Source: an uncultured Latescibacterota bacterium
Lineage (GTDB): Bacteria; Latescibacterota; UBA2968
Assembly: GCA_951812755.1 (NCBI GenBank)
Contig: OX638329.1
Location: forward strand, 3,170,522-3,234,521
DNA length: 64,000 bases
Direction of reading: 5' to 3'
In this document: positions 7,200-24,618 of the stretch, piece by piece
Layout of the letters: the number at the start of each line of letters is the position of its first letter
Numbering within the stretch: the first letter of the stretch is position 1
Position numbers and translations under genes: made by a program
Notes under the pieces: model-generated
Seen by the model: the letters and a program-made list of their open reading frames with translations, nothing else
What the model was told of the DNA's origin: nothing
The model's database searches: none

Positions 7200-9602
7200 T
7201 TACTCTACAATGCGAAAATAGACGTATTTCCTATCCGTCTGATTAGTCTGTTTGTCCTTTGCCAATACGGTTAGTTGATAAATCCCTTCAGGTACCTGGT
7301 TCACATCGATCTGCAAATACGTGAAATCATCTTCTCGATTGCCTTCGTAATCGGCTGTTACGGTTCGCGCCAAATCGCCATCTTTTGATCGCTTGATCTT
7401 CAAGCCTTCGGCGGCAATGTGATGGACTTGGCCTCCACTCGTATAAACCTTCGTCTCGCCCCATATATCGCTATCGGGAAATATGCTACTGATCCCATCG
7501 CTATCCTGAGATTGACCGGTCTGCAAACCCTCGGAAGCGATGTAATATCCTTGTCCACTCCGCAGATCAATCTCCGTTTTACCCATCGTATCAATCAGTT
7601 TTTGAGAGGCAAACAATGTGGGCGAGAGGGTATCTACCTCTGGTTTGCCGATGGTATAGGAGATCTCATACTGGGTATTGCCAAAGTCATCGCGTTGGAG
7701 ATCATACAGTTCCAGATAGATAAAGACTGATTCAGACGGTGAAAATGTGCGGATAGGGTTGGGGGTGATGACCAGGTCGTCACGACTTTCTGGCAATGCT
7801 TTTCGCGCTTGAATATTGCTGCCGACGAGCAGATCACTCAGACGAAAGGTCTCATCATCATAGACATACTGCTCCTGGTCGCGTGCGATACCAATCGCGC
7901 CAGATGTCTGGTCCATTAATTCCACTGAAAAACGGTAATTGCCTTGAGGGATGAATAACATACGCGAGACCAACAGGTGATCTTTTCGGTGCCTCGCGGC
8001 TGCGCTTTGTGTCGGTTTCTGTGACAGTAGTGTTGAACTCTCGGATTTGCGTTTGAAGCTCACAGATTTGCGATAGTTATATACATCATTCCAGTGCTCA
8101 TCAAACAAGAACATGCCATCCCAAAAACTCACTTCGCCAGTTTCGAGGTTGGTTGTTAGTCGGTCTTTTGGAATCATATAGCTGAGTTCGATTCGTACGC
8201 TGTCTCGTTCTTCAAAAGTTGCAACCTGATAGGGCAGGGTGTATTTTCGATTGAGATACGGATCGACAAAGCGTTGGGCCATTTTTTTGAAGGTATGATG
8301 TGATGCTTCTTCATAGGCCCAAAAATATTTGGGCGGAGAAGATTGTCTCATTGCAGAATCTATGCCTTCTCGGTAGTCATCAAAGGCACTGTTTTGTACA
8401 TAGATCATCATTGTAGCTATGTCAGGGATGTCAGAGATCAGACTGACACCGTCAAAGGCAAAACCACCACCAAAACTCCAACGATCAGCACCATCGCCAC
8501 AATATACGATCTTGAAGGTCTCATAAAACCAGGTCTCTATCAGATTGGCAGTCTTTCCGCAATTGCCATAACCGGATATCCGCCGTCTATATCTTCCAAA
8601 TTTGATATAAGTCTTCCCCATATCCGTCTGCCAGCCTTCGACATTGGCAGAAAATCGTTTGAACCGCAAATTGCTGTATGCCAGGCGGCCAAAGTGTTCC
8701 ATTTTTCTTTCGTTGAAATCAGATAAATAGAGGGGGTCCTGGCTCTTCCAAAACATCTCGCGTTTCAATAGTATATCAATCGTCTGCGTCGTATCGCGGG
8801 GAGCAGGACCTTCTTGTGGCACAAGCAGATCAATAGATTCGAGCAACTCACGTTCTTCGATACTCATCAAGTCAAGGGCGCGCTGATAGTAGTCATTCGA
8901 GTCATTGAACTCGCCAATCTGATAGGCAGCAAGGCCACAGAATAGCAACGCATTTTTGTCATCTGGGTTTTGCGCGTGCAGGTCTTGCATCAAGGCTTGG
9001 AAGGTGCTCCAATCCTCATCTTCAAAGTAGAGTATGCCTAAAAAATAATACGGTTTCTGATTGGTCGCATCCAATTGGATACTTTTTCGCAAGACATGCT
9101 CCGCCTCTTGTTTGGCCTCTTGAGCATATTTCCTAAAATCTCGACGTTCATCTTTTATTGCCAGAAACTCGTACACCTGATACATACCCGCACCATCCAG
9201 GGCTACCGTATTGTCCGGTTCCTTTTCGCTCACGTCCTCGTATTGATTCAATGCCCGTGACCGAAAGCCCTGTGCCCACCAGATTTTTCCGCGTGTCAGC
9301 CGATATTCAGCGTTATTAGGGTCAATAGCGATAGCATGCTGTATCATCCGCATTGCGCGCTGGCGGTCATTCACAGTATTGGCTTGTAAATACAGGTTAG
9401 CCAATGCGTTGTAGGCTGGGGCATACTCGTCGTCGCGTGAAAGGATGACGCGGAATGCCTCGACACTTTCCTTCCGAGTCACCTTGCCGACTTGCTCTAC
9501 TGCTGCCTGAAACAGCGCATCTATTGTGGTTTTTCCTCTGGACAAGCCAGAACCAGAGAGACTGGTCAGCGTAATCAGTACAATATGAATTGTGAATCGC
9601 AT
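7200..9602 (-). CDS. TPR and GWxTD-domain secreted protein, copy 1
   Basis: An 800-residue protein of unknown biochemical role. A hydrophobic N-terminal segment follows MRFTIHI (export signal). Residues about 45-260 hold TPR-like helices (for example AYNALANLYLQA, YYFLGILYFED, NALLFCGLAAYQIGEF). The GWxTD motif is GWQTD at 323-327, followed by TYIKFGRYRRR, and beta-rich C-terminal repeats carry a GYYIASEGLQTG/HHIAAEGLKIKRSKDGD pattern. The start at 9602 has GGAAG just upstream; an earlier in-frame ATG at 9674 would overlap the preceding sensor gene and puts a charged stretch before the signal. It follows sensor gene copy 1 by 46 bases. Paralogues at 14144-16441 and 21351-23819. Confidence 0.85.
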   Translation of the reverse strand: MRFTIHIVLITLTSLSGSGLSRGKTTIDALFQAAVEQVGKVTRKESVEAFRVILSRDDEYAPAYNALANLYLQANTVNDRQRAMRMIQHAIAIDPNNAEYRLTRGKIWWAQGFRSRALNQYEDVSEKEPDNTVALDGAGMYQVYEFLAIKDERRDFRKYAQEAKQEAEHVLRKSIQLDATNQKPYYFLGILYFEDEDWSTFQALMQDLHAQNPDDKNALLFCGLAAYQIGEFNDSNDYYQRALDLMSIEERELLESIDLLVPQEGPAPRDTTQTIDILLKREMFWKSQDPLYLSDFNERKMEHFGRLAYSNLRFKRFSANVEGWQTDMGKTYIKFGRYRRRISGYGNCGKTANLIETWFYETFKIVYCGDGADRWSFGGGFAFDGVSLISDIPDIATMMIYVQNSAFDDYREGIDSAMRQSSPPKYFWAYEEASHHTFKKMAQRFVDPYLNRKYTLPYQVATFEERDSVRIELSYMIPKDRLTTNLETGEVSFWDGMFLFDEHWNDVYNYRKSVSFKRKSESSTLLSQKPTQSAAARHRKDHLLVSRMLFIPQGNYRFSVELMDQTSGAIGIARDQEQYVYDDETFRLSDLLVGSNIQARKALPESRDDLVITPNPIRTFSPSESVFIYLELYDLQRDDFGNTQYEISYTIGKPEVDTLSPTLFASQKLIDTMGKTEIDLRSGQGYYIASEGLQTGQSQDSDGISSIFPDSDIWGETKVYTSGGQVHHIAAEGLKIKRSKDGDLARTVTADYEGNREDDFTYLQIDVNQVPEGIYQLTVLAKDKQTNQTDRKYVYFRIVE

Positions 9603-9648
9603 TCTCTTCCTTTTTCTTTTGCTAATACTGTGAATAGTTTTCGCCCTT

Positions 9649-12600
9649 TCAGTTTTTAGCTGGAATAGGCCCATTGGTCAATAACGCCTTCACAGCGGTT
9701 TCAACGCGATCTCCGCGCAGATTCGGCGCGTTGATGACGCCATTTTGGTTTACCAGAAATGCCGATGGAATACCCCATACGCCGTAGGATTTTGAAATTG
9801 TTCGCGCCTTTTCTTTGTCAAATACCTGCACATAGCTCAGCTTTTCTTTTTTGACAAAATCTCGCAGTGCTTGCTCATCGTGATCCAAACTCACACCCAC
9901 GACTTCCAGACCCTGATCTCGATATGTTTCAGCAATTCTTTTGATCGTCGGAATCTCATCGACGCACGGGGGACACCACGTTGCCCAAAAGTCGATCAAC
10001 ACGGCTTTTTTGTTCCGGTAATCTGATAGCCGGAATGTTGATCCATCCAACCGTTTGGCCTCAAATTCCGGTGCCATATCTCCCAAGCTCAAAGTCGAGC
10101 GTTCCTCCATTTCCAATTCCGCTATATAACGCAATTCTTTTTTATTCGTTAGATCAATCGTATCGACTTTGCTCCAGTGTTTTCTACCAGAACCGAGGTG
10201 GTCAGTTTTGCGAAACCTAATGGCAATCCGCGCAGAAGGCAGACCGCGCAATCCAAACCGTCCCTCTTCGTCTGTTTCAGTACCGCCTAATGAGACAAGA
10301 TTTTCAGGATCATCTGCTAAAATATTGGGGCTTACATAAACATCTGAAACAGGCTGTCCGTTATAAGTTGCAATACCTGTAAGTTGCGCGTCTCCCAGGG
10401 GTTCAAAGTTTAGCGTCATATCGCGGTCTTCGATTACCACTGTCCGAGATTGACCAGAGTGATGTATTGTTATCGTGTGACCATCTATTTCCATTTCTTC
10501 GGGCTTGGGGCCGCTCATGAAAATGCCATATTTCCCCGGCTCCAGATAGTCCAAACGATATGCACCATTGGCATCTGTACGGTCTGTTTTCGGAAAAATA
10601 CGACCACTTGATCTTTTAATTGGAAAGGCCGTGATTCTTAACCCTTCTACAGAACCGTCATTCAGGGATACCACACCTGAAACAGAATACACATCGCTCG
10701 GGGGTTCAAAGTTCAACGTCACATCGCGGTCTTTGATTACCAGCGTCTGAGATTGAACAGGGTAATATATTGTCTCCGGGTGCCCATCTATTTCCTTTTC
10801 TTTGAGTAAACTCATGGAAATGCGATATTCTCCTGGCTCCAGATCGTCTAAACGATATGTACCATTGGCATCTGTCTGATCTGTTTTTGGATACACAGGT
10901 TCATTTGATCTTTCAACTGGAAAAGCTCTGATTTCCAGCCCTTCTACAGAGTCTTTTTTTAGGGATACCACGCCTGAAACAGAATACACCCGGAAACGCT
11001 TTACCGGGATATCTATATCCATCACTGCTTGACCTTCGTCGTCAATTTTGAGCTTTATTGTACTATCGGCAGAGACAATTTGCTGATTTATAATTCCGAT
11101 ATCGGAATGGGTTACCCAGATATGACCTTTATGTACATCTATATTCTCTAAAATAAATAAACCCGACGTATCGGTATAGGTATTGCGGTGAAAGGGGAGG
11201 GGAGGTGGTGCTGTATATTTAGCACGAGGCATCGGGGGGCGGCCAAAGGCAACACGCGCCCTTGCAACGGGTTGATCGGACTCATCGACAACGCGACCGC
11301 GCAGGGTTATTCCCTTTTTCAAAGCTATATTTATCTGGCCTTCGACTGCATTTTCAACTGTTAGTGCGGTTTGTGCATATCCTTTTGCAGCGACTTCAAA
11401 AGTAGCCTGTGGCCCCGCGACCTGCCAGCCTTCAAATTTTCCATTGGCATCTGTAGTTAAAACCTGGGGAGATAACCGTTTATCTCTTGAAGTGTCATCT
11501 GAAATCACCACGACAGCATTAGTAATTGGATTATTGGATGTATCGAGCACGCGCCCGGATATGCGGCGCGAGTTGAGCAAGAGCAGATCGACATTGTCGA
11601 TTTCGCGTTCAGATTCTGCATTGACAGTCACAGGATCCGTCGCATTTTTGGATGCAATCCGCATGCGATATATGCCCGGGGTGACCTCAACGCGATAGCG
11701 GCCATCTTCATCTGTCTTGGTTCCTGCGTGTACCTCGCCATCGTCGTATTCAGCCCATATTCCCATATTTGCTACGGGTTGACCATCGCGCTGACCGATC
11801 ACTTTGCCTGAAATTGTTGTCAGGTGATCAGTAGGGGGCTTATAAGATGCAGTGCCAGAGATATCAAAAGAAAAAGAGCCATCTCCTTTTTCTATTAAAC
11901 TTTCGATAAAAATGCTGGGAATGCCATGCCTGCCCGTCGAACGCAACCACATTCCATCTTTATAGCGCATCAAGCCTCTGGCTTCTACCACTTTATGGTC
12001 ATCTTGATGCGTGCCAAACCACAAATCGCCGTTTTCGGTTTGCCAGATATTTCGAGAAGCGCGAATGGGCAATCCCGCATGCGCATCGTGGTATGTCCAG
12101 GTTGTGCCGTCAAAGCTGGAAATCCCGCCTCTGCTCCGCGTTATAGTGCGTCCCCGATGTGATCCATGTACGGCCCAAAGCGTGCCTGCTTGATCGTAAA
12201 ATAGCTCATAGATCTTGCGACCCTCGTACACATGGGCACTGCGTATCTTTTCAACGGGGATATTATCGACAAGGTGAGATGTCCATTTCCCATCTTTGTA
12301 ATAGCTCAATCCGCGAAGGGTGGCGATCCACACGCCGCCTTTGGGGTCGGCGACTACATCGTAAACTCGATTGTGAATCAGTCCATCTTCCACAGTATAG
12401 TTATGCCATGTTTTGCCATCAAAGTGCAAAATTCCATTTCCGCCCTGGATTTGATCCAGGCCACCGCGTGCTGTAATATTTTTACTGCTCTTGCGGATCC
12501 ATATACCGCCATCTGTATCTTCGGCAAATTTTGATCCGACACCGTGTTCTCCCAAACCCGTTTTGTTATCCCATATCCGCCATACCTTTCCATTGAAGTT

Positions 12601-14028
12601 CGTGATAACCAGACGACCTTTATATACCCCGGCAAACCACAGGGAGCCATTGTGTGCCTGCATAAAGGCACTGATGCTCACCAATGAACCACCCTCTGGC
12701 AATGTGAACTTTTGCCACGCATCTCCATCTTGCAAATAAAGTCCATCACTGCCGTGCCACCACCTGCGTCCATCGTGCATTTTTAGTGGAAGCGTATGGT
12801 GTGACACTTTACTGGTATCAGTTATAGCAACACCACCTTCAAATATAATTTTATTATTATGATCTACCTTTGAAGTACTCAGGCTGCCGATGATTATCGC
12901 CCCACCGATAAATACCACTGCCATCGCGAGTGCCGACAAGCGACCAACTCGCGGAGACACATGGCCGTCCAGGGTGATAATGCGATTGACCCGCGCCATG
13001 ACCTGAGTTCTTCGCGCCATGTCCATGCTCAGAGCCATCGCAGGACGAGGATGTAGTTGGGTCGCCACATTCAGGAGTGTATCCGCATAGCTTTCAGAAT
13101 TGCCAGTTGTCGTCACTGTCCAATCATCGCAGGCTTGTTCTTGAACTTCAAAGAGCAGATGCTTGACGCGGTGGAATAGGGGATTGAACCAGTAAAACGC
13201 CATGCCTACCATTGCCAGCAAACGATACAGGCAATCCCATCGCTTGACGTGAATGAGTTCGTGAATCAAAATTGATTCCAACTGATAGCGCGATTCGACC
13301 ATAGGCGCTGGCAATACGACGACTGGCTTCAGGAATCCTACCTGAGTTGGACTGCTGATTTTGTCACTGACGGATAGTGCGACGGATCGCCGAATATCCA
13401 ATTGATTCTTTAAGACCTGTAAATCATTTTGAAGCTGTTCGTCTTCACAGGGCAATAGAGATCGACGAAACTTGCAAACTATTATTAGACAATAGATTAC
13501 CCGAATCAATAAAATCAATACGCCAACAGCATAGACCACTATCACACCATACAAAGCCTGTGCTGAAGTGATTTTATCCAGTATATGGGCTGTCCAATTG
13601 ACCGATTTTGTCTCGGCATTTTTTTCGAAAACAATCTGTGCAGATGAGGGAGATACGAAGTCTTGAGATAATTCAACATCCTGGGATGGAGTCTTATCAG
13701 ACACCGTTTGTTGCTTCAATGCAGATGTGGATTTTGCCAGAGGTGTATCAGGGACAACAACAGGTTGAGGAGAAGGAATAGCCTGTTCTGAAGATGGCGA
13801 TAGCGCATCAAATTGAAATCGCAGGGAAGGTAGGCACAAAGACGCGATGGGAATGACCAGCACGCCGATAAGACACCAGCTTAAAAGCAAACTGCGCTTT
13901 GCTGCCTGTCGCGTGCCCAGAAGCCACACAGCAAGCAGAACAAAACCCATAAAGAGGGTCGTCTTGATAGTCGCATTGAGGAGAAAGATAGCAATCGGGT
14001 CCAGGACATTGACCAATGTATCGATCAT
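9649..14028 (-). CDS. Giant BlaR1/M56 sensor-protease fused to propeller, beta-sandwich and TlpA domains, copy 1
   Basis: 1459 residues. The N-terminal part is a BlaR1-type M56 metalloprotease: membrane segments near 12-38, 47-65, 157-185 and 364-385, and HELIH at 256-260 with the third ligand in EQACDD (297-302). After the last membrane segment come propeller-like repeats (about 405-730; GDLWFGTH, GGVWIATLRGLS), then several carboxypeptidase-regulatory-like beta-sandwiches (from about 735; ISGKV...DEDGRYRVEVTPG), and finally a TlpA/ResA-like thioredoxin domain (about 1310-1459) with C1352-P-P-C1355. By BlaR1 topology the protease faces the cytoplasm and everything after residue 385 the periplasm. 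The penicillin-binding sensor of BlaR1 is absent. Preceded by a 38-codon blaI tail with a 4-base overlap; followed by the GWxTD gene. Confidence 0.88.
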   Translation of the reverse strand: MIDTLVNVLDPIAIFLLNATIKTTLFMGFVLLAVWLLGTRQAAKRSLLLSWCLIGVLVIPIASLCLPSLRFQFDALSPSSEQAIPSPQPVVVPDTPLAKSTSALKQQTVSDKTPSQDVELSQDFVSPSSAQIVFEKNAETKSVNWTAHILDKITSAQALYGVIVVYAVGVLILLIRVIYCLIIVCKFRRSLLPCEDEQLQNDLQVLKNQLDIRRSVALSVSDKISSPTQVGFLKPVVVLPAPMVESRYQLESILIHELIHVKRWDCLYRLLAMVGMAFYWFNPLFHRVKHLLFEVQEQACDDWTVTTTGNSESYADTLLNVATQLHPRPAMALSMDMARRTQVMARVNRIITLDGHVSPRVGRLSALAMAVVFIGGAIIIGSLSTSKVDHNNKIIFEGGVAITDTSKVSHHTLPLKMHDGRRWWHGSDGLYLQDGDAWQKFTLPEGGSLVSISAFMQAHNGSLWFAGVYKGRLVITNFNGKVWRIWDNKTGLGEHGVGSKFAEDTDGGIWIRKSSKNITARGGLDQIQGGNGILHFDGKTWHNYTVEDGLIHNRVYDVVADPKGGVWIATLRGLSYYKDGKWTSHLVDNIPVEKIRSAHVYEGRKIYELFYDQAGTLWAVHGSHRGRTITRSRGGISSFDGTTWTYHDAHAGLPIRASRNIWQTENGDLWFGTHQDDHKVVEARGLMRYKDGMWLRSTGRHGIPSIFIESLIEKGDGSFSFDISGTASYKPPTDHLTTISGKVIGQRDGQPVANMGIWAEYDDGEVHAGTKTDEDGRYRVEVTPGIYRMRIASKNATDPVTVNAESEREIDNVDLLLLNSRRISGRVLDTSNNPITNAVVVISDDTSRDKRLSPQVLTTDANGKFEGWQVAGPQATFEVAAKGYAQTALTVENAVEGQINIALKKGITLRGRVVDESDQPVARARVAFGRPPMPRAKYTAPPPLPFHRNTYTDTSGLFILENIDVHKGHIWVTHSDIGIINQQIVSADSTIKLKIDDEGQAVMDIDIPVKRFRVYSVSGVVSLKKDSVEGLEIRAFPVERSNEPVYPKTDQTDANGTYRLDDLEPGEYRISMSLLKEKEIDGHPETIYYPVQSQTLVIKDRDVTLNFEPPSDVYSVSGVVSLNDGSVEGLRITAFPIKRSSGRIFPKTDRTDANGAYRLDYLEPGKYGIFMSGPKPEEMEIDGHTITIHHSGQSRTVVIEDRDMTLNFEPLGDAQLTGIATYNGQPVSDVYVSPNILADDPENLVSLGGTETDEEGRFGLRGLPSARIAIRFRKTDHLGSGRKHWSKVDTIDLTNKKELRYIAELEMEERSTLSLGDMAPEFEAKRLDGSTFRLSDYRNKKAVLIDFWATWCPPCVDEIPTIKRIAETYRDQGLEVVGVSLDHDEQALRDFVKKEKLSYVQVFDKEKARTISKSYGVWGIPSAFLVNQNGVINAPNLRGDRVETAVKALLTNGPIPAKN
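10390..10989 (-). repeat. Tandem duplication of a beta-sandwich module inside sensor copy 1
   Basis: Two adjacent modules of 99 and 101 residues, both starting VYSVSGVVSL and ending around TLNFEP; the first lies at 10693-10989 and the second at 10390-10692. Sensor copy 2 has one such module. The DNA is still alike in both, for example GAAACAGAATACAC at 10976 and 10679. Confidence 0.85.
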
Positions 14029-14143: not shown

Positions 14144-16441
14144 TTATTTTATGATACGGAAATAAACGTATTTTCTATCCGTCTGCTCTGTCCGCTTATC
14201 CTGTGCCGATACGGTCAATTGATAAATCCCCTCAGGCACCTTATTCACATCGATTTGCAAATACGTGAAATCATCTTCTCGATTGCCTTCATAATTGGCT
14301 GTCACAGTTCGAGACAAATCGCCATCTTTTGATCGCTTAATCTTCAAGCCTTCGGCGGTGATGTGATGGACTTGCCCCCCACTCGTATAAACCCTCGTCT
14401 CGCCCCATATATCGCTATCGGGAAATACGCTACTGCCCTCCTCGCCATCCTCAGGCCGTCCGGTCTGCAACCCCTGAGCAGCTATATAATCTGTTTGTCC
14501 ACTCCGTAGATCAATCTCAGTTTTACCCATCGTAGAAATCAGACTTTGAGATGCGAACAAGGTCGGAGACAGGGTATCTACTTCGGGCTTGCCAATGGTG
14601 TAGGAGATCTCATACTGTGTGCTGCCAAAATCGTCGCGTTTGAGATCATACAGTTCCAGATAGATAAAGACCGGTTCAGATGGTGAAAATGTGCGGACGG
14701 GGTTGGGTGTGATGAGCAGGTCGTCACGGCTTTCTGGCAATGCTTTCTTCGTTTGAATATCGTTGCCGACGAGCAGATCACTCAGACGAAAGGTCTCCTG
14801 ACCATATACAAAGGGTTTCTCATCGCGTGCCACACCAATTAAACCGGATGTTTGATCCATAAATTCTATTGAAAAATGATAGCTGCTCTGGCGTACAGGT
14901 ACCGTGCGTGAGATCAGCAGGTGATCATTGCGATGTTTTGCTGCGGTGTTTTGTGCTGGCTGCGGCTTCGGAAAAGTGAGGGTCTTGAACTTGCGATAGT
15001 TATACATATCGCTCCACTGCTGATCAAAGAAGAACACACCATCCCAAAAACTTACTTTGCCCGTTTTCGGGTTTTTTGTTAATTGGTTTTTGGGAATCAT
15101 ATAGCTGAGTTCGACGCGCATCCTGTTTTGTTCTTCAAAGGTGGCGATTTGATAGGGGAGGGTATATTTGCGCTCTAAGTAGGGATCGATAAAGCGTTGG
15201 GGTGTTTTCCGAAAGGTATGATGCGAAGCCTCGTCGAAGTACCCCAGGTGATTACGGGCACCAACTTGTCCTACCTCAAAACCACCACAGAAGCTCCAGC
15301 GATCGGCACCATTCCCGCAATATTCGATCTTAAATGTTTCGTAATACCAGGTTTCCATCATTCTATAAAATGCCCTGTACTGGTCCTGTCCTACAGAAAA
15401 GAAAAAGGTTCTTCTTCTTCTATATCTTCCAAATTTGATATAGGTCTTTCCCATATCCGTCTGCCACCCTTCGATATCATCAGAAAATCGCCTGAATCGC
15501 AAATTTGCATAAGCCATACGACCAAAGTGCGCCATCTTTCTTTCGTTAAAATCAGACAAATAGAGTGGGTCCTGACGCTTCCAAAACATCTCGCGTTTCA
15601 ATAACGCATCAATCGTCCGCGTCGCATCGCGAGATGCATGATTTTCTTTTGGTGCAAGCAGGTCGATAGATTCGAGCAACTCGCGCTCTTCTACACTCAT
15701 CAAGTCAAGGGCACGTTGATAGTATTCATGCGATTCATCGAATTCGCCAATCTGATAGGCGGCAAGCCCACAGAACAACAGCGCATTTTTGTCATCTGGA
15801 TATTGCGCGCGCAGAGCTTGCATCAGGGCGTGGAAGGCATCCCAGTATTTATCTTCAAAGTAGAGTATGCCCAACAAATAATAAGGTGTCTGATTGGTTC
15901 CATCCAATTCGATGCTTTTTCTCAGGACCTGAATAGCTTCTTGTTTGGCTTCCTGAGCAAATCCCCTGAAATCTCGGGTTTGGGAATTATCTTTTATTCT
16001 TAGAAATTCATACACCCAGAACATACCCAGGCCATTGAGGACATCCGTATTGTTGGGATGCTTTTCGGTTACGTCCTTGAATTGGTTGAATGCGCGTGAC
16101 CGAAAGCCCTGCGTCCACCAGATTTTTCCGCGTGTTATCCGATACTCTATATTGTCGGGGTCACTTGCGATTGCCTGCTGGATCATCCGCATTGCGCGCT
16201 GTCGGCCATTTACGCTGTGATCCAACAGATGCAGTTTGGCCAATTCATTATATGCAGGTGCGTAATCTTTCTCTTTGGAAATAATCTCCTCGAACGCCAC
16301 AATGCTTTCCCTTTGGCTTACCTTCCCAACTTGCTGCTCTGCCACATGAAATAGCGAGTCTATTGTTGTTTCGCCTTTGGACGATCCATGACCCAAAATG
16401 CAGGTCAATGTGATCAATCCGATGCGAATTGTGAATCGCAT
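14144..16441 (-). CDS. TPR and GWxTD-domain secreted protein, copy 2
   Basis: 765 residues, paralogue of the proteins at 7200-9602 and 21351-23819, with the same order: export signal after MRFTIRI, TPR-like helices, GWQTD at 325-329 followed by the TYIKFGRYRRR stretch, and beta-rich C-terminal region. It is shorter than copy 1 in the stretch between the GWxTD motif and DEASHHTFRK. The start lies 46 bases after the end of sensor copy 2, exactly as in unit 1; an upstream ATG at 16513 overlaps the sensor gene and is less likely. AAGGATGAG precedes the ATG. Function unknown; the fixed gene order suggests it works with the sensor in the cell envelope. Confidence 0.85.
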   Translation of the reverse strand: MRFTIRIGLITLTCILGHGSSKGETTIDSLFHVAEQQVGKVSQRESIVAFEEIISKEKDYAPAYNELAKLHLLDHSVNGRQRAMRMIQQAIASDPDNIEYRITRGKIWWTQGFRSRAFNQFKDVTEKHPNNTDVLNGLGMFWVYEFLRIKDNSQTRDFRGFAQEAKQEAIQVLRKSIELDGTNQTPYYLLGILYFEDKYWDAFHALMQALRAQYPDDKNALLFCGLAAYQIGEFDESHEYYQRALDLMSVEERELLESIDLLAPKENHASRDATRTIDALLKREMFWKRQDPLYLSDFNERKMAHFGRMAYANLRFRRFSDDIEGWQTDMGKTYIKFGRYRRRRTFFFSVGQDQYRAFYRMMETWYYETFKIEYCGNGADRWSFCGGFEVGQVGARNHLGYFDEASHHTFRKTPQRFIDPYLERKYTLPYQIATFEEQNRMRVELSYMIPKNQLTKNPKTGKVSFWDGVFFFDQQWSDMYNYRKFKTLTFPKPQPAQNTAAKHRNDHLLISRTVPVRQSSYHFSIEFMDQTSGLIGVARDEKPFVYGQETFRLSDLLVGNDIQTKKALPESRDDLLITPNPVRTFSPSEPVFIYLELYDLKRDDFGSTQYEISYTIGKPEVDTLSPTLFASQSLISTMGKTEIDLRSGQTDYIAAQGLQTGRPEDGEEGSSVFPDSDIWGETRVYTSGGQVHHITAEGLKIKRSKDGDLSRTVTANYEGNREDDFTYLQIDVNKVPEGIYQLTVSAQDKRTEQTDRKYVYFRIIK

Positions 16442-16487
16442 TCTCATCCTTTTTCCTTGTGCCAATACTATGAATAGTTTCATCAGT

Positions 16488-19400
16488 TCAGTTTTTAGCT
16501 GAAATAGGCCCATTGGCCAATAACGCCTTCACTGCCGCTTCCGTGCGAGTTCCACGCAGCTTCAGCGCGTTGATGACGCCATTTTTATCTATCAGAAATA
16601 CCGATGGGATGCCCCAGACACCGTAGGATTTTGAAATTGTCCGCGTCTTTTCTTTCTCAAATACCTGCACATAGCTCAGTTTTTCTTCTTTCACAAAATC
16701 TCGCAGTGCCTTCTCTTCGCGATCCAAACTCACGCCCACGACTTCCAATCCCTGATTGCGATAGGTTTCGGCAATGCTTTTGATTGTCGGAATTTCATCA
16801 ATGCACGGTGGACACCACGTTGCCCAAAAATCGATCAACACGGCTTTTTTGTCTCGGTAATCTGCGAGCCGAAATGTTGAACCATCCAGCCTCTTGGCCT
16901 CAAATTCGGGTGCGATATCTCCCAGGCTCAAGGTTGGACGTTCCTCCATTTCCAATTCTGCTATATAACTCAATTCTTTTTTATTCGTCAGATCAATCCT
17001 ATCGACTTTGCTCCAGCGTTTTCCACCAGGACCGAGGTTGTCTCTTTTGTAAAATCTGATGGTAATCCGTGCAGAAGGCAGACCACGTAATTCAAACCGG
17101 CCCTCTTTGTTTGTTTTTTTCCCTTCTATTGAGACAAAATTCTCAGGATCCTCGCCTATAATATGGACGCTTATGGCAACATCTGAAACGGGCTGTCCCT
17201 TGTAAGTTGCCACACCTGTAATTCGCGCATCGCCCAGAGGCTCAAAGTTCAATATTACATCGCGGTCTTTGATTACCAGCACCTGAGATTGAACACTGCG
17301 ATGTATTGCGATTGTGCGTCCATCCCTTTCCTCTTTTTCGGGTGCGGTTACGGAAATATGATATTTCCCTGGCTCCAGACCCTCCTGAAGATATGCACCA
17401 TTAGCGTCAGGGTGGCCTACTTGGGGTCTGGATTCTGCGCCATTAAGGGCAATCGTTCTGACCGTTAGCCTTTCTACGGGTACACCAGTTAGCGATACCC
17501 TGCCTGAAATAGAGTACAGACGCAAACGCTCTACGCGGATATCTATTACATCATCGGCAGGTGTAACTTTTTGATTCACCATTCCGGTCTCGGGATGATT
17601 CACCCAGATGTGACCACCCGCTACGTCATTTAGAGTGAACAAACCCGACGCATCCGTATAAGTATTGCGCTGGAAGGGCAATGCGGGCAATGTATATACT
17701 TTCTTTTCAGGATTCGGCGGAGGTCCAGGACCAACGCGCGCCCAGGCAATGGGTTTGCCCAACTCATCCACAACGCGACCGCGAAACATCATTCCTTTTT
17801 TGAGACTAATCACTACTTGCTCTTCAATGGCATTTTCAACTTCCCGCACGATTTGTGCGTATCCTTCTGCTGCGACGTCAAAAGTAGCTTGTGGTCCCGC
17901 AACCTGCCAGCCTTCAAATTTTCCATTGGCATCTGTGGTCACGATCTGGGGAGATAATCGTCGATCGTCTAAAGAATCATCGGAAATCACCACAACAGCA
18001 TTGGCAATTGGATTATCGAATTTGTCACGTACGAGACCGGATATGCGGCGCGAGTTGAGCAAGAGCAGATCGACATCTTCAATTTTACTCTCGGATTTTG
18101 CCTCAACGGTCACGGGTTCAGCCGCATTCTTGGACGCGACCCGCACGCGATATACGCCCGGGGTGACTTCGACGCGATAGCGGCCATCTTCATCTGTCAT
18201 GGTTCCTGCATGCACCTCGCCATCGTCGTATTCAGCCCATATCCCCATATTTGCTATGGGTTGGCCATCGCGCTGATCGATTACTTTACCAGATATTGTT
18301 GTCAGGTGATCGATAGGTGGCTTATAGGATACAATACCAGAAACACCAAGGTAAAAAGCCCCATCGCCTTTTTCAACCAGACCCCATACAGAATCGCGGG
18401 GAATGCCGTGTTTGCGCGTCAATCGCAACCACATCCCATCTTTATACCGCATCAGACCTTTTGTCTCTACATCCCGTTGGTCACCTTGATGCGTGCCAAA
18501 CCACAGATCGCCATTTTCCGTTTGCCAGATATTTCGAGACGCATTTATAGGCAGTCCATCATGTGCATCGTAGTGTGTCCATGCTGTGCCGTCAAAGCTG
18601 GAAATCCCTCCTCTGCGCCGCGTTATGGTGCGCCCAATAACCGATCCATGCACGGCCCAAAGCGTGCCTTTTTCGTCGTAAAATAGCTTATAGATCTTGC
18701 GGCCATCATATATATTCCCATTACGCACGCCCTCTATGGGCACGCTATCGACAATATGAGAGGTCCATTTTCCATCTTTGTAGTGGCTCAATCCGCGAAG
18801 GGTTGCGATCCACACGCCGCCTTCGGAATCGGTTTCCACATTGTAAACTCGATTGTGGATCAATCCATCTTCCACAGTATATTTGCGCCATACTTTGCCA
18901 TCAAAATGCAAGACGCCGTTTCCGCCTTTGAAGCGATCGGGGCCTCCGTGTGCTCTGATATTTGAAAAGCTCTGGATAACCCAGATACCGCCACCATCAT
19001 CTTCGGCAAAATCATATCCAGGGGTGATTTCTCCCAGACCCGTTGTTTTTGAATCCCATACCTGCCATGTCTTTCCGCTAAAGTTCGCGACAATTGGCCT
19101 ATTTTTATATATACCGGCAAACCACATTGAGCCATTGCGCGCTTGCATAAAGGCACGCATCTGGTCGAATGAACCATCTTCCGGCAATGTGAACTTTTGC
19201 CACGTATCTCCATCCTGCAAATAGAGACCATTCGCGCCGCGCCACCACAGGCGACCATCGCGCATTTTCATCGGAAGTGCTCGCTGCGATACGTCGCTGG
19301 TATCGGTTATGGCAATTCCGCCCTCAAATACAATTTTTTTATCATTGTGATCGACCTTTGAAGTGGTCAGGCTGCCAATGACGGTCGCTCCACCGATAAA

Positions 19401-20510
19401 TACCACTGCCATTACAAGTGCTGACAAGCGACCAACGCGCGGAGACACATGGCCTCCCAGGGTGATAATGCGATTGACCCGCTCCAGGACCTGAGTTGGT
19501 CGCGCCATGTCCATGCCCAAAGCCATCGCAGGACGAGGTTGCAGTTGGGTTGCCACATTCAGGAGCGTGTCCGCGTAGCTTTCAGAATTGCCAGTTGTCG
19601 TTACTGTCCAATCATCGCAGGCTTGTTCTTGAACTTCAAAGAGCAGATGCTTGACGCGGTGGAATAGGGGATTGAACCAGTAAAACGCCATGCCTACCAT
19701 TGCCAGCAAACGATACAGGCAATCCCATCGCTTGACGTGAATGAGTTCGTGTATCAAAATTGATTCCAACTGATAGCGCGATTCGACCATAGGTGCTGGC
19801 AATACGACTACTGGCTTCAGGAGTCCTACCTGAGTTGGACTGCCGATTTGGTCACTGATAGATAGTGCGACGGATCGCCGAATACCCAATTGATTCTTTA
19901 AGACCTGTAAATCATTTTGAAGCTGTTCGTCTTCACAGGGGAATAGAGATCGATGAAACTTGCAAACCATTATAAGACAATAAATTATCCGAATCAGTAA
20001 AACCAATACGCCAATAGCATAGAGTACGATCACACCATATAAAGCATGTGCTGAAGTGATTTCATTCAGTATATGGGCTGTCCAATTGACTGATTTTGTC
20101 CCGGCATTTTTGGCGAAAACAATTTGTGCGGGGGAGGGGGGTACGAAGTCTTGAGATAGTTCTGGGTTTTCTGAAAACGCCCTATCAGATACTCTTTGTT
20201 GATTCAATGCAGGTGTGGATTTTGTCAGAGATGTCTCAGGGACAACTACAGGTTGGGGAGATGGAATAGCCGATTCCGAAGGTGGCGATGGCGCATCAAA
20301 TTGAAATCGCAGGGAAGGTAGGCACAAAGACGCGATGGGAATGACCAGCACGCCGACAAGACACCAGTTCAAAAGCAAACTGCGCTTTGCTGCCTGGCGT
20401 GTGCTCAGAAGCCACACGGCAAGTAGAACAAGACCCATAAATAGGGTGGTCTTGATAGTCGCATCGAGGAGAAAGATGGCAATGGGTTCCAGTACAGGTG
20501 TATCGATCAT
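16488..20510 (-). CDS. Giant BlaR1/M56 sensor-protease fused to propeller, beta-sandwich and TlpA domains, copy 2
   Basis: 1340 residues with the architecture of copy 1: M56 protease membrane domain with HELIH at 254-258 and a conserved EQACDD, last membrane segment near 366-385, propeller-like repeats, carboxypeptidase-regulatory-like modules (one fewer than copy 1) and a C-terminal TlpA-like domain with C1233-P-P-C1236. The N-terminal 350 residues are almost identical to copy 1, whereas the periplasmic part has drifted more, as expected if the sensing part is diversifying. Its ATG overlaps the blaI stop (ATGA), so repressor and sensor are made together. In the known BlaR1/MecR1 systems the M56 domain leads to cleavage of BlaI; the same wiring is inferred here. 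Confidence 0.88.
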   Translation of the reverse strand: MIDTPVLEPIAIFLLDATIKTTLFMGLVLLAVWLLSTRQAAKRSLLLNWCLVGVLVIPIASLCLPSLRFQFDAPSPPSESAIPSPQPVVVPETSLTKSTPALNQQRVSDRAFSENPELSQDFVPPSPAQIVFAKNAGTKSVNWTAHILNEITSAHALYGVIVLYAIGVLVLLIRIIYCLIMVCKFHRSLFPCEDEQLQNDLQVLKNQLGIRRSVALSISDQIGSPTQVGLLKPVVVLPAPMVESRYQLESILIHELIHVKRWDCLYRLLAMVGMAFYWFNPLFHRVKHLLFEVQEQACDDWTVTTTGNSESYADTLLNVATQLQPRPAMALGMDMARPTQVLERVNRIITLGGHVSPRVGRLSALVMAVVFIGGATVIGSLTTSKVDHNDKKIVFEGGIAITDTSDVSQRALPMKMRDGRLWWRGANGLYLQDGDTWQKFTLPEDGSFDQMRAFMQARNGSMWFAGIYKNRPIVANFSGKTWQVWDSKTTGLGEITPGYDFAEDDGGGIWVIQSFSNIRAHGGPDRFKGGNGVLHFDGKVWRKYTVEDGLIHNRVYNVETDSEGGVWIATLRGLSHYKDGKWTSHIVDSVPIEGVRNGNIYDGRKIYKLFYDEKGTLWAVHGSVIGRTITRRRGGISSFDGTAWTHYDAHDGLPINASRNIWQTENGDLWFGTHQGDQRDVETKGLMRYKDGMWLRLTRKHGIPRDSVWGLVEKGDGAFYLGVSGIVSYKPPIDHLTTISGKVIDQRDGQPIANMGIWAEYDDGEVHAGTMTDEDGRYRVEVTPGVYRVRVASKNAAEPVTVEAKSESKIEDVDLLLLNSRRISGLVRDKFDNPIANAVVVISDDSLDDRRLSPQIVTTDANGKFEGWQVAGPQATFDVAAEGYAQIVREVENAIEEQVVISLKKGMMFRGRVVDELGKPIAWARVGPGPPPNPEKKVYTLPALPFQRNTYTDASGLFTLNDVAGGHIWVNHPETGMVNQKVTPADDVIDIRVERLRLYSISGRVSLTGVPVERLTVRTIALNGAESRPQVGHPDANGAYLQEGLEPGKYHISVTAPEKEERDGRTIAIHRSVQSQVLVIKDRDVILNFEPLGDARITGVATYKGQPVSDVAISVHIIGEDPENFVSIEGKKTNKEGRFELRGLPSARITIRFYKRDNLGPGGKRWSKVDRIDLTNKKELSYIAELEMEERPTLSLGDIAPEFEAKRLDGSTFRLADYRDKKAVLIDFWATWCPPCIDEIPTIKSIAETYRNQGLEVVGVSLDREEKALRDFVKEEKLSYVQVFEKEKTRTISKSYGVWGIPSVFLIDKNGVINALKLRGTRTEAAVKALLANGPISAKN

Positions 20511-20890
20511 GATGTGCCTCCTGTGCGTTGCTTGAGTTTTTCACGCAATCGCGCTACATCGTCCATGTCTATCTCTTCGTCTTCAACCAGTCGCGCCAGC
20601 AAGAGTTCGGTTGATCCGCCAAATAGTTTTTGTATAATGTGCTTCATCGCCGATGATTGAACGCTTTGCTGTTCGATCACAGGTCGGTACACATTGGCGC
20701 GTCCTTGCTTTTCGTGCGCCACATAGCCTTTGTCTTCCATGATCTGTAAGAGTGTGCGAATGGTTGATCCTTCTAACCTGTTGGGTAATTTTGCCTGTAT
20801 CACCTCGACAGTCGCTTCTTTCTGTTGCCAGAGTACCTGTATGAGTTCTATTTCACGAGTGGTCAATCCCTCTTGTCGCAGTCTTGCCAT
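20507..20890 (-). CDS. blaI: BlaI/MecI-family transcriptional repressor
   Basis: 127 residues, the family length. A winged helix-turn-helix occupies the first 75 residues (LTTREIELIQVLWQQ, GSTIRTLLQIMEDKGYV), followed by a helical dimerisation tail (KLFGGSTELLLARLVEDEE). Family members bind dyad operators as dimers and are removed by cleavage when the partner membrane protease is triggered. AAGGAG lies just before the ATG. The gene overlaps sensor copy 2 by 4 bases. It is the only intact blaI for two sensor genes in the window. Its promoter is at 21186-21214, separated from the gene by a mobile palindrome at 20909-21135. Confidence 0.93.
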   Translation of the reverse strand: MARLRQEGLTTREIELIQVLWQQKEATVEVIQAKLPNRLEGSTIRTLLQIMEDKGYVAHEKQGRANVYRPVIEQQSVQSSAMKHIIQKLFGGSTELLLARLVEDEEIDMDDVARLREKLKQRTGGTS

Positions 20891-20908: not shown

Positions 20909-21135
20909 ACTGATGTTACGCATGTCAGACGTTTTGTCATGCTGAGCGGAGTGGAACGGAGCCGAAGCATCTGTTCCACCTGCGCTATGAGTAGATGAAC
21001 TGCTACGCAGTCATGCTCGATTTACTCGCCTTCATACCCCGCTCCTTCGACTCCACTGCGCGGAGTTTATCTTGAGCGAAGCCGAAAGGCTCAGAATGAC
21101 AGGCGCATTATATTGTGCCTATGCGTAACATCAGT
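20909..21135. mobile_element. MITE-like palindromic repeat, copy A
   Basis: Ends are a perfect 15-base inverted repeat: ACTGATGTTACGCAT at 20909-20923 and ATGCGTAACATCAGT at 21121-21135. Inside, GTCATGCTGAGC near the left faces GCTCAGAATGAC near the right. TATTTA flanks it on both sides (20904-20909 and 21136-21141). No coding capacity. It lies between the blaI promoter and the blaI ribosome-binding site. Related copies at 37624-37805 and about 49551-49677. Confidence 0.82.
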
Positions 21136-21155: not shown

Positions 21156-21171
21156 TGCGAAATAATTAGCA
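21156..21171. promoter_or_regulatory. Candidate BlaI operator, blaI promoter, downstream site
   Basis: TGCGAAATAATTAGCA, a dyad with the pattern TGC-n-AA-n-TA-n-TT-n-GCA. It lies about 8-23 bases after the predicted transcription start. An identical 16-mer is at 23871-23886 in the same position relative to its own promoter. Confidence 0.6.
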
Positions 21172-21185
21172 TATCAGTTTTCAGA

Positions 21186-21214
21186 AAAATATCCTATTAA
21201 AAATTCGTTGTCAA
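21186..21214 (-). promoter_or_regulatory. Promoter of blaI and sensor copy 2
   Basis: Minus-strand TTGACA (21214-21209), 17-base spacer, TATTTT (21191-21186). The surrounding 140 bases are homologous to those at 23869-24009. Confidence 0.75.
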
Positions 21215-21222
21215 GCCCAAAT

Positions 21223-21238
21223 AGCGAAAAAATTAGCA
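21223..21238. promoter_or_regulatory. Candidate BlaI operator, blaI promoter, upstream site
   Basis: AGCGAAAAAATTAGCA, 14 of 16 bases as in the downstream site, 67 bases from it, just upstream of the -35 box. Confidence 0.5.
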
Positions 21239-21277
21239 GTGTTTTTAAATGCACAGAAGGTTGTAGTTGACTCAAAA

Positions 21278-21308
21278 ATAAAAAACCGCCCGTTGTTGCT
21301 GGGCGGTT
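21278..21308 (-). terminator. Intrinsic terminator after GWxTD copy 3
   Basis: AACCGCCC (21284-21291) pairs with GGGCGGTT (21301-21308); on the minus strand a T-run follows. It separates the GWxTD copy 3 transcript from the blaI promoter. Confidence 0.85.
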
Positions 21309-21350
21309 GGGACGAATATCAAGACACAACCGGCGAATTGGTATCGTTCT

Positions 21351-23819
21351 TCACTTTACAACCCGAAAATAAACGTATTTCCTATCCGTCTGCTCTGTTT
21401 GCTTGTCCTGTGCCAATACCGTTAATTGATAGATCCCTTCAGGCACCTGGTTCACGTCGATCTGCAAATACGTGAAATCATCTTCTCGATTGCCTTCGTA
21501 ATTGGCTGTGACTGTGCGGGTCAAATCGCCATCTTTTGATCGCTTGATCTTCAAGCCTTCGGCGGCGATGTGATGCACTTGACCACCACTCGTATAAACC
21601 CTCGTCTCGCCCCATATATCGCTATCGGGAAATACGCTATCGAGCACATCGTCATCCTGTGATTGCCCGGTCTGCAAATCCTCGGCAGCAATTTGATCTG
21701 TTTGTTCACTATGCAGAGCAATCTCTGTTTTTTCCATCGTCTCAATCAGATCTTGAGAGGCGAATAATGTGGGCGATAGCGTATCCACCTCTGGCTTGCC
21801 GATAGTGTAGGAGATCTCATATTGCGTGCTGCCAAAATCGTCGCGTTGAAGATCATACAGTTCCAGATAGATAAAGACGGGTTCAGATGGTGAAAATGTA
21901 CGGACGGGATTGGGAGTAATGAGCAGGTCGTCACGGCTTTCTGGCAATGCTTTCTTCGCTTGAATATCGCTGCCGACGAGCAGATCACTCAGATGGAAGG
22001 GCTCCTGGTCATACAAAAATTGTTCCTCATTGCGTGCAATACCAATTGCGCCGGATGTCTGATCCAATAATTCCACAGAAACATGATAGCTGCCTTGAGG
22101 TACAGACAATGTGCGCGAGATCAACAGGTGATCGTTGCGATGTCGTGCAGCAGCATTGGAGGCTGGCTTCTGCGGCGGCAATGCAAAACTCACGAATTTG
22201 CGATAGTTATACACATCATTCCACTGTTCATCAAACAAGAACACCCCATCCCAAAAACGCACCTTGTCCGTTTCGGGATTTTCTGTTAATCGGTCTTTGG
22301 GAATCATATAGCTGAGTTCGACCCGCATGCTGTCTCGTTCTTCAAAGGCGGCGATCTGATGGGGAAGAGTGTATTTGCGATTGAGGTAAGGATCGACAAA
22401 GCGTTGGGCTGTTTTCCGGAAGATATGATGCGGGGCTTCTGTCAATATAGATGTAGGTGGAATCATGGAACCCGGTGATATTCTCATCATAAAATACGGT
22501 CGTATCCTCTTAGCATCATTCTCTGCTCTCTTCGTGATCGTAAAACCACTGGTTTCTACTGCAGGCACCGTGCTTGGGAGGTAGCCTACAGCACCGCCGC
22601 AAAAATGCCAGCTATCATCCGTAGTGCCACAAAATTTGAACTGAAAGTTTTCGTAATACCAGAACTCCATCATTGCGGCATCCAGGATCTTTTCAGAATC
22701 CCATGTCCCTTTATAGGTTGTCACGCGCCGTCTATATCTTCCAAATTTGATATAGGTCTTTCCCATATCTGTCTGCCACCCCTCAACATCATCCAAAAAT
22801 TGCCTGAACCGCAAATTTGCATAAGCCATGCGACCAAAATGTGCCATCTTTCTTTCATTAAATTCTGACAAATAGAGAGGATCCTGACGCTTCCAAAACA
22901 TCTCGCGTTTCAATAATTCATCAATTGCCTGCGTCGTATCGCGGGATGCATGCTCTTCTTCAGGCACAAGCAAATCAATTGATTCGAGCAACTCACGTTC
23001 TTCAACACGCATCAAGTCAATGGCGCGTTGATAGTATTCATGTGAGTCATTGAATTCGCCAATTTGATAGGCGGCAAGCCCACAGAACAAGAGCGCATTT
23101 TTGTCATCTGGGTTGTGCGCGTACAAGTCTTGCATCAAGGCATGAAACGCATTCCAGTTCTCATCTTCAAAGTAGAGGATGCCCAGCAAATAATAGGATT
23201 GCTGATTAGTGGCATCCAATTGGATGCTTTTTCGCAGGACTTGCACGGCTTCTTGTTTGGATTCCTGGGCAAAGGTCTTGAAATCTTTTATCCTGGGCTT
23301 CATTGCCATTTCCTTGTAATGTGGTACCCTGGACCCCATGTCCATCTCTTTCAATGGCGCTCTTCTATCTTTCTGTGATAGAAAATCATACACCAAGAAC
23401 ATACCTATACTATTGAGGACATCCGTATTTTTCGGATGCTTTTTCATCACGTTCTTGAATTGGTTCAATGCGCGTGACCGAAAGCTCTGTGCCCACCAGA
23501 TTTTTCCGCGCGTTAGCTGATACTCAATATTGTCGGGGTTAATTGCGATTGCCTGCTGTATCATCCGCATTGCGTTCTGCCTACCATTTATGCTGTAGTC
23601 CAACAAATACAGTTTGACCAATTCATTATATGCAGGCGCATAATTTTTGTCCTTGGAAATAATCTCCTCGAACGCCTTGATGCTTTCCTTTTGGCTTACC
23701 TTCCCGACTTGCTCCATTGCATTCTGAAACAGCGAGTCTATTGTGGTTTCCCCTTTGGACAAGCCAGAACCCAAAAGGCAGGCCAACGCGATCAATCCGA
23801 TATGGGTTGTATATCGCAT
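21351..23819 (-). CDS. TPR and GWxTD-domain secreted protein, copy 3
   Basis: 822 residues, the third paralogue. Export signal after MRYTTHIGLIAL, TPR-like helices, GWQTD at 347-351 followed by the TYIKFGRYRRR stretch, and the same beta-rich C-terminal region ending RKYVYFRVVK. It carries an extra 20-odd residue insertion (around residues 150-180, KEMDMGSRVPHYKEMAMK) that the other two lack. AAGGA 7 bases upstream picks the ATG at 23819 over an in-frame one at 23834. Unlike copies 1 and 2 it has its own promoter (23901-23929) with two candidate operators, and its own terminator, so it can be expressed apart from a sensor gene. Confidence 0.85.
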   Translation of the reverse strand: MRYTTHIGLIALACLLGSGLSKGETTIDSLFQNAMEQVGKVSQKESIKAFEEIISKDKNYAPAYNELVKLYLLDYSINGRQNAMRMIQQAIAINPDNIEYQLTRGKIWWAQSFRSRALNQFKNVMKKHPKNTDVLNSIGMFLVYDFLSQKDRRAPLKEMDMGSRVPHYKEMAMKPRIKDFKTFAQESKQEAVQVLRKSIQLDATNQQSYYLLGILYFEDENWNAFHALMQDLYAHNPDDKNALLFCGLAAYQIGEFNDSHEYYQRAIDLMRVEERELLESIDLLVPEEEHASRDTTQAIDELLKREMFWKRQDPLYLSEFNERKMAHFGRMAYANLRFRQFLDDVEGWQTDMGKTYIKFGRYRRRVTTYKGTWDSEKILDAAMMEFWYYENFQFKFCGTTDDSWHFCGGAVGYLPSTVPAVETSGFTITKRAENDAKRIRPYFMMRISPGSMIPPTSILTEAPHHIFRKTAQRFVDPYLNRKYTLPHQIAAFEERDSMRVELSYMIPKDRLTENPETDKVRFWDGVFLFDEQWNDVYNYRKFVSFALPPQKPASNAAARHRNDHLLISRTLSVPQGSYHVSVELLDQTSGAIGIARNEEQFLYDQEPFHLSDLLVGSDIQAKKALPESRDDLLITPNPVRTFSPSEPVFIYLELYDLQRDDFGSTQYEISYTIGKPEVDTLSPTLFASQDLIETMEKTEIALHSEQTDQIAAEDLQTGQSQDDDVLDSVFPDSDIWGETRVYTSGGQVHHIAAEGLKIKRSKDGDLTRTVTANYEGNREDDFTYLQIDVNQVPEGIYQLTVLAQDKQTEQTDRKYVYFRVVK

Positions 23820-23870
23820 TGTTATTCCTTTCAAAAGAGAGTGGTCTTTTTATCAATCTGAGTGATTTTG

Positions 23871-23886
23871 TGCGAAATAATTAGCA
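23871..23886. promoter_or_regulatory. Candidate BlaI operator, GWxTD copy 3 promoter, downstream site
   Basis: TGCGAAATAATTAGCA, identical to 21156-21171, about 8-23 bases after the predicted start of transcription. Confidence 0.6.
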
Positions 23887-23900
23887 TATAAATTTCCAGA

Positions 23901-23929
23901 AAAATAGCCAATTAAAAACTCGTTGTCAA
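23901..23929 (-). promoter_or_regulatory. Promoter of GWxTD copy 3
   Basis: Minus-strand TTGACA (23929-23924), 17-base spacer, TATTTT (23906-23901). Start predicted near 23894, giving a leader of about 75 bases. Confidence 0.75.
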
Positions 23930-23936
23930 GTTCAAG

Positions 23937-23952
23937 TACGAAATAATTAGCA
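23937..23952. promoter_or_regulatory. Candidate BlaI operator, GWxTD copy 3 promoter, upstream site
   Basis: TACGAAATAATTAGCA, 15 of 16 bases as in the downstream site, 66 bases from it and just upstream of the -35 box. Confidence 0.55.
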
Positions 23953-23978: not shown

Positions 23979-24009
23979 AAAAAAAACCGCCCGTTGTTGC
24001 CGGGCGGTT
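23979..24009 (-). terminator. Intrinsic terminator after the lone tlpA gene
   Basis: AACCGCCCG (23985-23993) pairs with CGGGCGGTT (24001-24009), with a long T-run on the minus strand. Sequence and loop (TTGTTG) closely match the terminator at 21278-21308. Confidence 0.85.
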
Positions 24010-24069: not shown

Positions 24070-24618
24070 TCAATTAGCTGAAATAGGCGCATTGGTCAAT
24101 AACGCCTTCACAGCCGCTTCTGTGCGATTGCCGCGTAGCTTCATCGCGTTAATGACGCCATTTTTATCTATTAGAAATACCGATGGGATGCCCCATACAC
24201 CGTAGGATTTTGCAATTGCGTCTGATTTTTCTTTGTCAAATACTTGCCCATAGCTCAACTTTTCTTGTTTCACAAAATCTCGCAGTGCCTGCTCATCCCG
24301 GTCCAAACTCACGCCTACGACTTCCAATCCCTGATTGCGATAAGTTTCAGCAATGCTTTTGATTGTCGGAATTTCATCAATGCACGGTGGACACCACGTT
24401 GCCCAAAAATCGATCAACACGGCTTTTTTGCCCCGATAATCTGCGAGCCGGAAGGTTGAACCATCTAACTGTTTGGCCTCAAATTCTGGGGCTGTATCTC
24501 CCACGCTCAAGGTCGGACGTTCCTCCTTACAGCCAATTGCCACTGTTCCGGCAATAAACATTACCGCGATCACCAGTGCGGACACGCGACCATTTTGATT
24601 GAACCGTGTGTTATTCAT
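24070..24618 (-). CDS. TlpA/ResA-like thiol-disulfide protein, probable lipoprotein
   Basis: 182 residues. A hydrophobic N-terminal segment (VSALVIAVMFIAGTVAIGC) ends in a possible lipobox Cys30; the rest is a TlpA-like thioredoxin domain with C76-P-P-C79 and the GIPS cis-proline region. The domain is nearly the same as the C-termini of the two giant sensors, and the N-terminal segment (GRVSALVIAVMFIAG) resembles their last membrane helix (VGRLSALVMAVVFIGG). It therefore looks like a sensor gene from which protease, propeller and beta-sandwiches were deleted, although the reverse (a source for the fusion) cannot be excluded. Expected to act in the periplasm on protein or small-molecule thiols. 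AGGAGA precedes the ATG; promoter at 24674-24702. Confidence 0.88.
   Translation of the reverse strand: MNNTRFNQNGRVSALVIAVMFIAGTVAIGCKEERPTLSVGDTAPEFEAKQLDGSTFRLADYRGKKAVLIDFWATWCPPCIDEIPTIKSIAETYRNQGLEVVGVSLDRDEQALRDFVKQEKLSYGQVFDKEKSDAIAKSYGVWGIPSVFLIDKNGVINAMKLRGNRTEAAVKALLTNAPISAN

Follow-up and report, generated by a model that had tools for sequence, protein, structure and literature searches.

The window analysed here, a 64-kb stretch of the genome of a Latescibacterota host, carries pairs of a 16-base dyad around two promoters, those of blaI and of a GWxTD/TPR gene, which raises the question of what regulator these pairs serve and how far its reach extends. An earlier note, made from the letters of this DNA, proposed that they are operators of BlaI. 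The positions, symmetry and spacing that it listed are all borne out by a scan of the window (Table 1): the dyad TGCGAAATAATTAGCA, symmetric at 12 of its 16 positions, occurs in two exact copies, one copy with a single mismatch and one with two, the last of which, at 21223, has lost the outer pair and the central TA. Start to start, the pairs measure 67 and 66 bp, and they enclose TTGACA-17-TATTTT on the minus strand, where the order within a unit is distal dyad, 7-8 bp, TTGACA, 17 bp, TATTTT, 14 bp, proximal dyad. One site of each pair does lie upstream of the -35 element as claimed; the placement of the other just after the start of transcription rests on the predicted -10 element, the start itself being unmapped.

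Table 1. Features of the dyad-bracketed promoters and the associated genes (window coordinates)
Feature	Position	Strand	Basis
Third GWxTD/TPR-type gene, end of the proposed operon	7200..9674	-	similarity, by eye
Second copy of the M56-thioredoxin sensor	9649..14028	-	
Second GWxTD/TPR-type gene, overlaps the sensor stop, same proposed operon	14144..16513	-	similarity, by eye
BlaR1-like sensor: M56 domain, propeller/CarboxypepD_reg, C-terminal ResA-like thioredoxin	16488..20510	-	profile search
blaI, PF03965 repressor, 127 aa, proposed dyad binder	20507..20890	-	profile search
Proximal (downstream) dyad of the blaI promoter, exact, minus-strand TGCTAATTATTTCGCA	21156..21171	-	sequence scan
Predicted -10 TATTTT, blaI promoter	21186..21191	-	promoter scoring
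Predicted -35 TTGACA, blaI promoter	21209..21214	-	promoter scoring
Distal (upstream) dyad of the blaI promoter, two mismatches, TGCTAATTTTTTCGCT	21223..21238	-	sequence scan
GWxTD/TPR gene under the second operator pair	21351..23834	-	
Downstream dyad of the GWxTD/TPR gene promoter, exact	23871..23886	-	sequence scan
Predicted -10 TATTTT, GWxTD/TPR gene promoter	23901..23906	-	promoter scoring
Predicted -35 TTGACA, GWxTD/TPR gene promoter	23924..23929	-	promoter scoring
Upstream dyad of the GWxTD/TPR gene promoter, one mismatch, TGCTAATTATTTCGTA	23937..23952	-	sequence scan
Hairpin resembling an intrinsic terminator, behind tlpA and directly upstream of the second cassette	23985..24009	-	

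The window contains six sites with at most three mismatches to the dyad, compared with 0.92 expected, and none of 100 shuffles reached this number; the sites at 28933 and 39806, with three mismatches each, are at chance level. The two dyad-bracketed promoters, together with one at 23653, have the top sigma-70-like scores in the region (10/12), and the total of eight sigma-70-like sites there is not above that in shuffled sequences (6.8, sd 2.8). The tlpA promoter (24702-24674) lacks a dyad at up to three mismatches, in agreement with the earlier note.

That note had also called for a genome-wide search, with random scatter of the 16-mer as an outcome that would count against the proposal; the search was run and showed the opposite of scatter. 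The dyad formula TGCNAANTANTTNGCA has seven exact copies in the 6.53-Mb host genome compared with none for the reversed control, the letters at the free positions are identical in all seven, and all seven belong to promoter cassettes, five of them with two dyads and one a half cassette (1140420-1140456) that has a single dyad and lies upstream of an LRR gene. With up to two mismatches, 12 dyads are found against 4 in the control, 11 of them in the five full cassettes and the half; the remaining one, a partnerless dyad with two mismatches at 681821, was treated as chance. With the 116-bp cassette as query, these five full cassettes and the half were recovered, with no further match below E 0.3. 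By itself, the loose core GCKAANNNNTTMGC shows no genomic enrichment (32 matches vs 64 in the reversed control), so that the 16-mer in its fuller form and the pairing must supply the specificity; a scan with the loose half-site core as a regulon finder was dropped, having fewer matches than the control.

Most of the -35/-10 spacer is common to the five host cassettes, and this similarity, along with the half copy, could be explained if the cassette were a mobile or gene-converted repeat, with the dyads as by-products of copying and no regulator involved. This is very improbable. The cassette is present in all 11 genus genomes, with 32 matches, of which 31 were examined, an overlapping one in G002 being set aside; two dyads are present in 26 of the 31, and the other five do not have both. 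All 25 readable two-dyad cassettes point into a gene in the same direction, the 26th being cut by a contig end. The genes behind the 26 are blaI (8), dockerin-thioredoxin (7), GWxTD (4), a secreted TPR protein whose Pfam matches fall below the cut-off and give no confident family (3), and LRR, WD40/peptidase-like and MacB-type permease genes (one each). Moreover, the two dyads of a cassette change in concert, both being of the TGCGAA type in G004 and of the TTAGC type in G008, and in G056, a member of another family of Latescibacterota, the spacer bears no resemblance to that of the genus, yet the dyads and the -35 element remain. The spacer is well conserved within the genus, and recent copying of the cassette, in addition to selection, may therefore explain part of the dyad conservation there. 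A strict two-dyad pattern yields 12 pairs in 9 of the 11 genus genomes and none in the control; because it misses variants, the cassette matches were used for the counts. Among 60 relatives, the exact dyad formula is found in 14, namely, 10 of the 11 genus genomes and four others, one of which (G056) has the dyad before a BlaI.

The repressor encoded next to the first pair is a clear member of the PF03965 family (102.5 bits, cut-off 22.6, residues 9-121) and matches MecI/BlaI structures (MecI 1sd6, E 3.5e-11). It is not of the beta-lactam BlaI/MecI subtype: its scores are below the cut-offs of the NCBIfam exception models for BlaI_of_BCL, the best of them (52.8 vs 180), and MecI (42.9 vs 250). 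Nor is it of the CopY type: it scores 63 bits against 121.95 for CopY_TcrY, and the 127-aa translation contains no cysteine and hence no CopY C-terminal Cys-X-Cys. In an alignment read by eye, the known BlaI cleavage bond, Asn-Phe (PMC9834060), corresponds to Arg-Leu here.

BlaI is encoded in every genus genome (two copies are cut by contig ends), and the operator pair is found at all nine genus blaI promoters with readable upstream DNA. Outside the genus, the BlaI of G056 is 35% identical, and TGCTAAATAATTCGCA and AGCTAATTAATTCGCA flank TTGACA at its promoter; in G059, from another lineage of the phylum, a window-type pair with a differing spacer precedes a distant BlaI. In the near clade, L099 and L100 have one perfect and one imperfect site each, L094 has two imperfect sites and L097 has one. 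The sites are poor at two short second blaI copies (G006:C32 and G007:C75), the operator score is below the cut-off in G012 (L095), whose BlaI is closely related but frame-broken, and the promoter in G011, with a BlaI about a third identical, lacks a window-type site. The BlaI copies L095 (G012), L115 (G007) and L116 (G006) have an in-frame stop or a short end, and the operators of L115 and L116 are degraded; the BlaI switch may have decayed in some lineages.

Across BlaI lineages, paired 6-4-6 dyads with a score of at least 22 occur in 19 of 97 upstream regions (0.28 expected) and, at score 22 with one representative per 60% cluster, in 4 of 32 (0.09 expected), a test that is not fully independent because several of the same promoters had been viewed by eye before the frame (6-4-6) and the distance range (50-75 bp) were chosen. 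The upstream regions derive from BlaI matches after removal of fragments and one other match (103 regions, 99 of them long enough in the first scan). The first scan found no pair at the window blaI, where a 225-bp insert displaces the operators to more than 180 bp away; for the later scans, the correct stretch was entered by hand and proteins under 60 aa were excluded, which left the 97 regions. The insert (20910-21134), located between the operators and blaI, is MITE-like, with 14-bp terminal inverted repeats and TTATTTA direct repeats; 57 matching pieces of its family are present in the host genome, and the other genus blaI leaders that were read lack it.

A perfect core of the window type stands before 13 of 17 near BlaI genes, compared with none of 80 others. 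With one miss allowed, the counts are 15 of 17 and 3 of 80 (0.52 and 2.16 expected from shuffles), or 13 of 15 and 5 of 82 when G056 and G059 (L108 cluster), whose operators were already known when they were assigned to the near group, are removed from it. In this comparison, L107, L175 and L178, for which the window BlaI is the best match at 32-33% identity and whose promoters lack a window-type site, were counted as others, and L095, with its broken frame and no site at the cut-off, was excluded.

The high-scoring pairs of other BlaI lineages are 52-62 bp apart, and pairs of the TGAGAA, TACGAC and TGATCA types are seen in other lineages. The host genome encodes three PF03965 proteins, namely, the window BlaI and the paralogues at 4513098 and 2813684, and one of the cassettes, at 2823699, lies about 10 kb from the latter. 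Binding of the dyads by one of these paralogues, or by an unrelated factor, might thus be considered, but is very unlikely given that the promoters of the two paralogues carry dyads of other kinds, a TATTAA-4-TTAATA pair 54 bp apart for 4513098 and a single TTACTAAAAAATTAGTAA, of the TACTAA-4-TTAGTA type, for 2813684, and that the window-type operator is absent from both paralogue clusters (0/15 and 0/14). It appears that several Latescibacterota BlaI lineages keep a common paired-dyad frame, each with its own half-site. The co-occurrence in the genus, the presence of the same operator before distant BlaI proteins, the tracking of operator type with repressor lineage and the recurrence of the plan with other letters at the paralogues support a link between the dyads and BlaI. 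The proposal of BlaI operators is thus supported, and BlaI is predicted to bind them.

We conclude that BlaI very probably occupies the paired dyads at several promoters of this host. The sites, their layout, the genome-wide restriction of the cassette, its conservation and the operator-lineage tracking are computed; from these, we infer BlaI binding, repression, proteolysis and the extracytoplasmic nature of the signal. The model as a whole, with the dyads as operators of the neighbouring BlaI, double occlusion by the pair, sensor-triggered release and a multi-promoter regulon, is highly likely. One BlaI dimer would bind each dyad, giving up to four protomers per promoter. The distal dimer, 7-8 bp upstream of the -35 element, would keep sigma off this element, the proximal one, just past the -10 element, would cover the start region, and the two would jointly silence the blaI-sensor-GWxTD operon, an autoregulatory effect, as well as four or more further promoters of the host.

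The earlier note had offered blocking and looping side by side. Two like sites bracket each promoter, as would be required if BlaI dimers on both dyads contacted each other to form a small loop of promoter DNA. However, the dyads in the 26 cassettes are 60, 61, 62, 64, 65, 66 or 67 bp apart, a range of roughly two thirds of one helical turn; in the high-scoring pairs of other BlaI lineages, the distance is 52-62 bp. The distal dyad is fixed at 7-8 bp from the -35 element in all 26, whereas the proximal one floats at 7-14 bp from the -10 element, so that the pair is not in helical phase. A 60-bp loop would also be stiff, and we know of no tetramer interface in MecI or BlaI. Looping is therefore unlikely, and the drift in spacing favours double occlusion over a rigid loop.

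Release would depend on the sensor, which is BlaR1-like in plan and has no detected beta-lactam domain. It matches PF05569 (M56) with 121.5 bits, scores 79.8 against a cut-off of 400 for NCBIfam blaR1_generic, and has four TM-like regions, with HELIH at residue 254 between the TM-like stretches 151-187 and 359-384. Beyond these regions follow about 950 residues that comprise a propeller, CarboxypepD_reg and a ResA-like thioredoxin with CPPC; no penicillin-binding domain was found among the families at E 0.001, its place at the C-terminus being taken by the thioredoxin. At E 1e-30, the sensor is found in all 11 genus genomes and in none of four further members of the family. The G002 protein retains residues 1-391, whereas the remainder differs, again with an end that is thioredoxin-like by eye. 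The M56-propeller-thioredoxin protein would read an extracytoplasmic signal, and its cytoplasmic metalloprotease would cleave or otherwise inactivate BlaI, opening the whole regulon, by analogy with BlaR1, which cleaves BlaI directly (PMC9834060). Redox or envelope state is only a conjecture for the signal, based on the sensor domains and the thioredoxin-type targets.

The proposed blaI operon extends to position 7200, with blaI followed by the sensor, a GWxTD-type gene, a second-blaI remnant, the second sensor and another GWxTD-type gene, all overlapping or closely spaced. The remnant (14028-14138) corresponds to residues 91-127 at 86% identity, and its location between tandem copies of the sensor and GWxTD-type genes suggests that the whole module was duplicated. 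The thioredoxin domain of the sensor (residues 1189-1339) is 88% identical to the tlpA product (24073-24525), which suggests recent domain capture or conversion.

The arrangement resembles BlaI/BlaR1 and MecI/MecR1 of Staphylococcus and Bacillus licheniformis in the combination of a PF03965 repressor and an M56 membrane sensor in one operon, in the 16-bp dyads in the promoter region and in the expected autoregulation; the B. licheniformis OP1 oligo (PMC3305447) fits the 6-4-6 frame as TCTTAC-ATAT-GTAATA, in a layout made here. Unlike in those systems, the half-site is TGC(T/G)AA rather than a TACA core, no beta-lactam sensor domain was found, beta-lactamase and PBP2a are absent among the targets seen, and the pair brackets a single promoter instead of lying between divergent genes. 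The CopR/CopY copper repressors are homologous proteins of the same Pfam family. They likewise have a 16-base operator, with two operators at 67 of 88 cop promoters, although mostly 24-39 bases apart (commonest, 26), and two-layer occlusion by paired operators is proposed for CopY and cited for BlaI in PMC7253601. CopY differs further in its C-terminal Cys-X-Cys motifs, compared with the cysteine-free window BlaI. For BlaI_0696 and BlaI_1845 of Clostridium thermocellum, with small regulons of three and one operons, respectively, PMC8457756 describes two inverted-repeat sites with four protomers per target, the paired repeats being reported as a strict requirement; there, the half-site is GTCTAT/GACTAT, the BlaI_0696 halves are five bases apart and the regulon is interpreted as a beta-lactam response. 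Paired operators being known in BlaI and CopY, the layout alone is not new; new here are the half-site, the regulon and the outer domains of the sensor.

Most of what is known of BlaI/BlaR1 comes from antibiotic resistance. In this host, the same kind of repressor and protease seem to control cell-surface and redox-type proteins through several promoters. The regulon is less usual in its TlpA/dockerin, LRR and GWxTD content, as is the sensor, in which an M56 protease is joined to propeller, carboxypeptidase-regulatory and thioredoxin domains. The operator is distinctive enough for the regulon to be read from sequence. A broader and more tentative reading, somewhat short of an even chance, is that a BlaR1-type proteolysis switch became an extracytoplasmic thiol/envelope sensor governing, through paired operators, secreted thioredoxin/dockerin, LRR and GWxTD proteins, with a lineage-specific half-site code. 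If so, several BlaI lineages with their own half-sites would constitute a readable repressor-operator code. The paralogues with matching but different dyads would allow prediction and direct testing of BlaI specificity. The Latescibacterota records examined are all metagenome assemblies, and the top-ranked matches in the openly licensed literature deal neither with BlaI in Latescibacterota nor with a fusion of M56 and thioredoxin.

Several minor features of the cassette surroundings were observed as well. At the listed start of the MacB-type gene that follows a cassette (L018, about 13957-13975), there is a TGGCAC-N5-TTGC motif, which we take to resemble the sigma-54 promoter consensus, and comparable motifs are present downstream of the cassettes of G010:C306 and G003:C11. 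By eye, blaI adjoins the start of a DNA polymerase gene in G001, G003, G004 and G008 (L088, L098, L090 and L093, respectively), without tlpA and the GWxTD gene in between, and the blaI operator of G004 directly adjoins a stretch that resembles the tlpA promoter.
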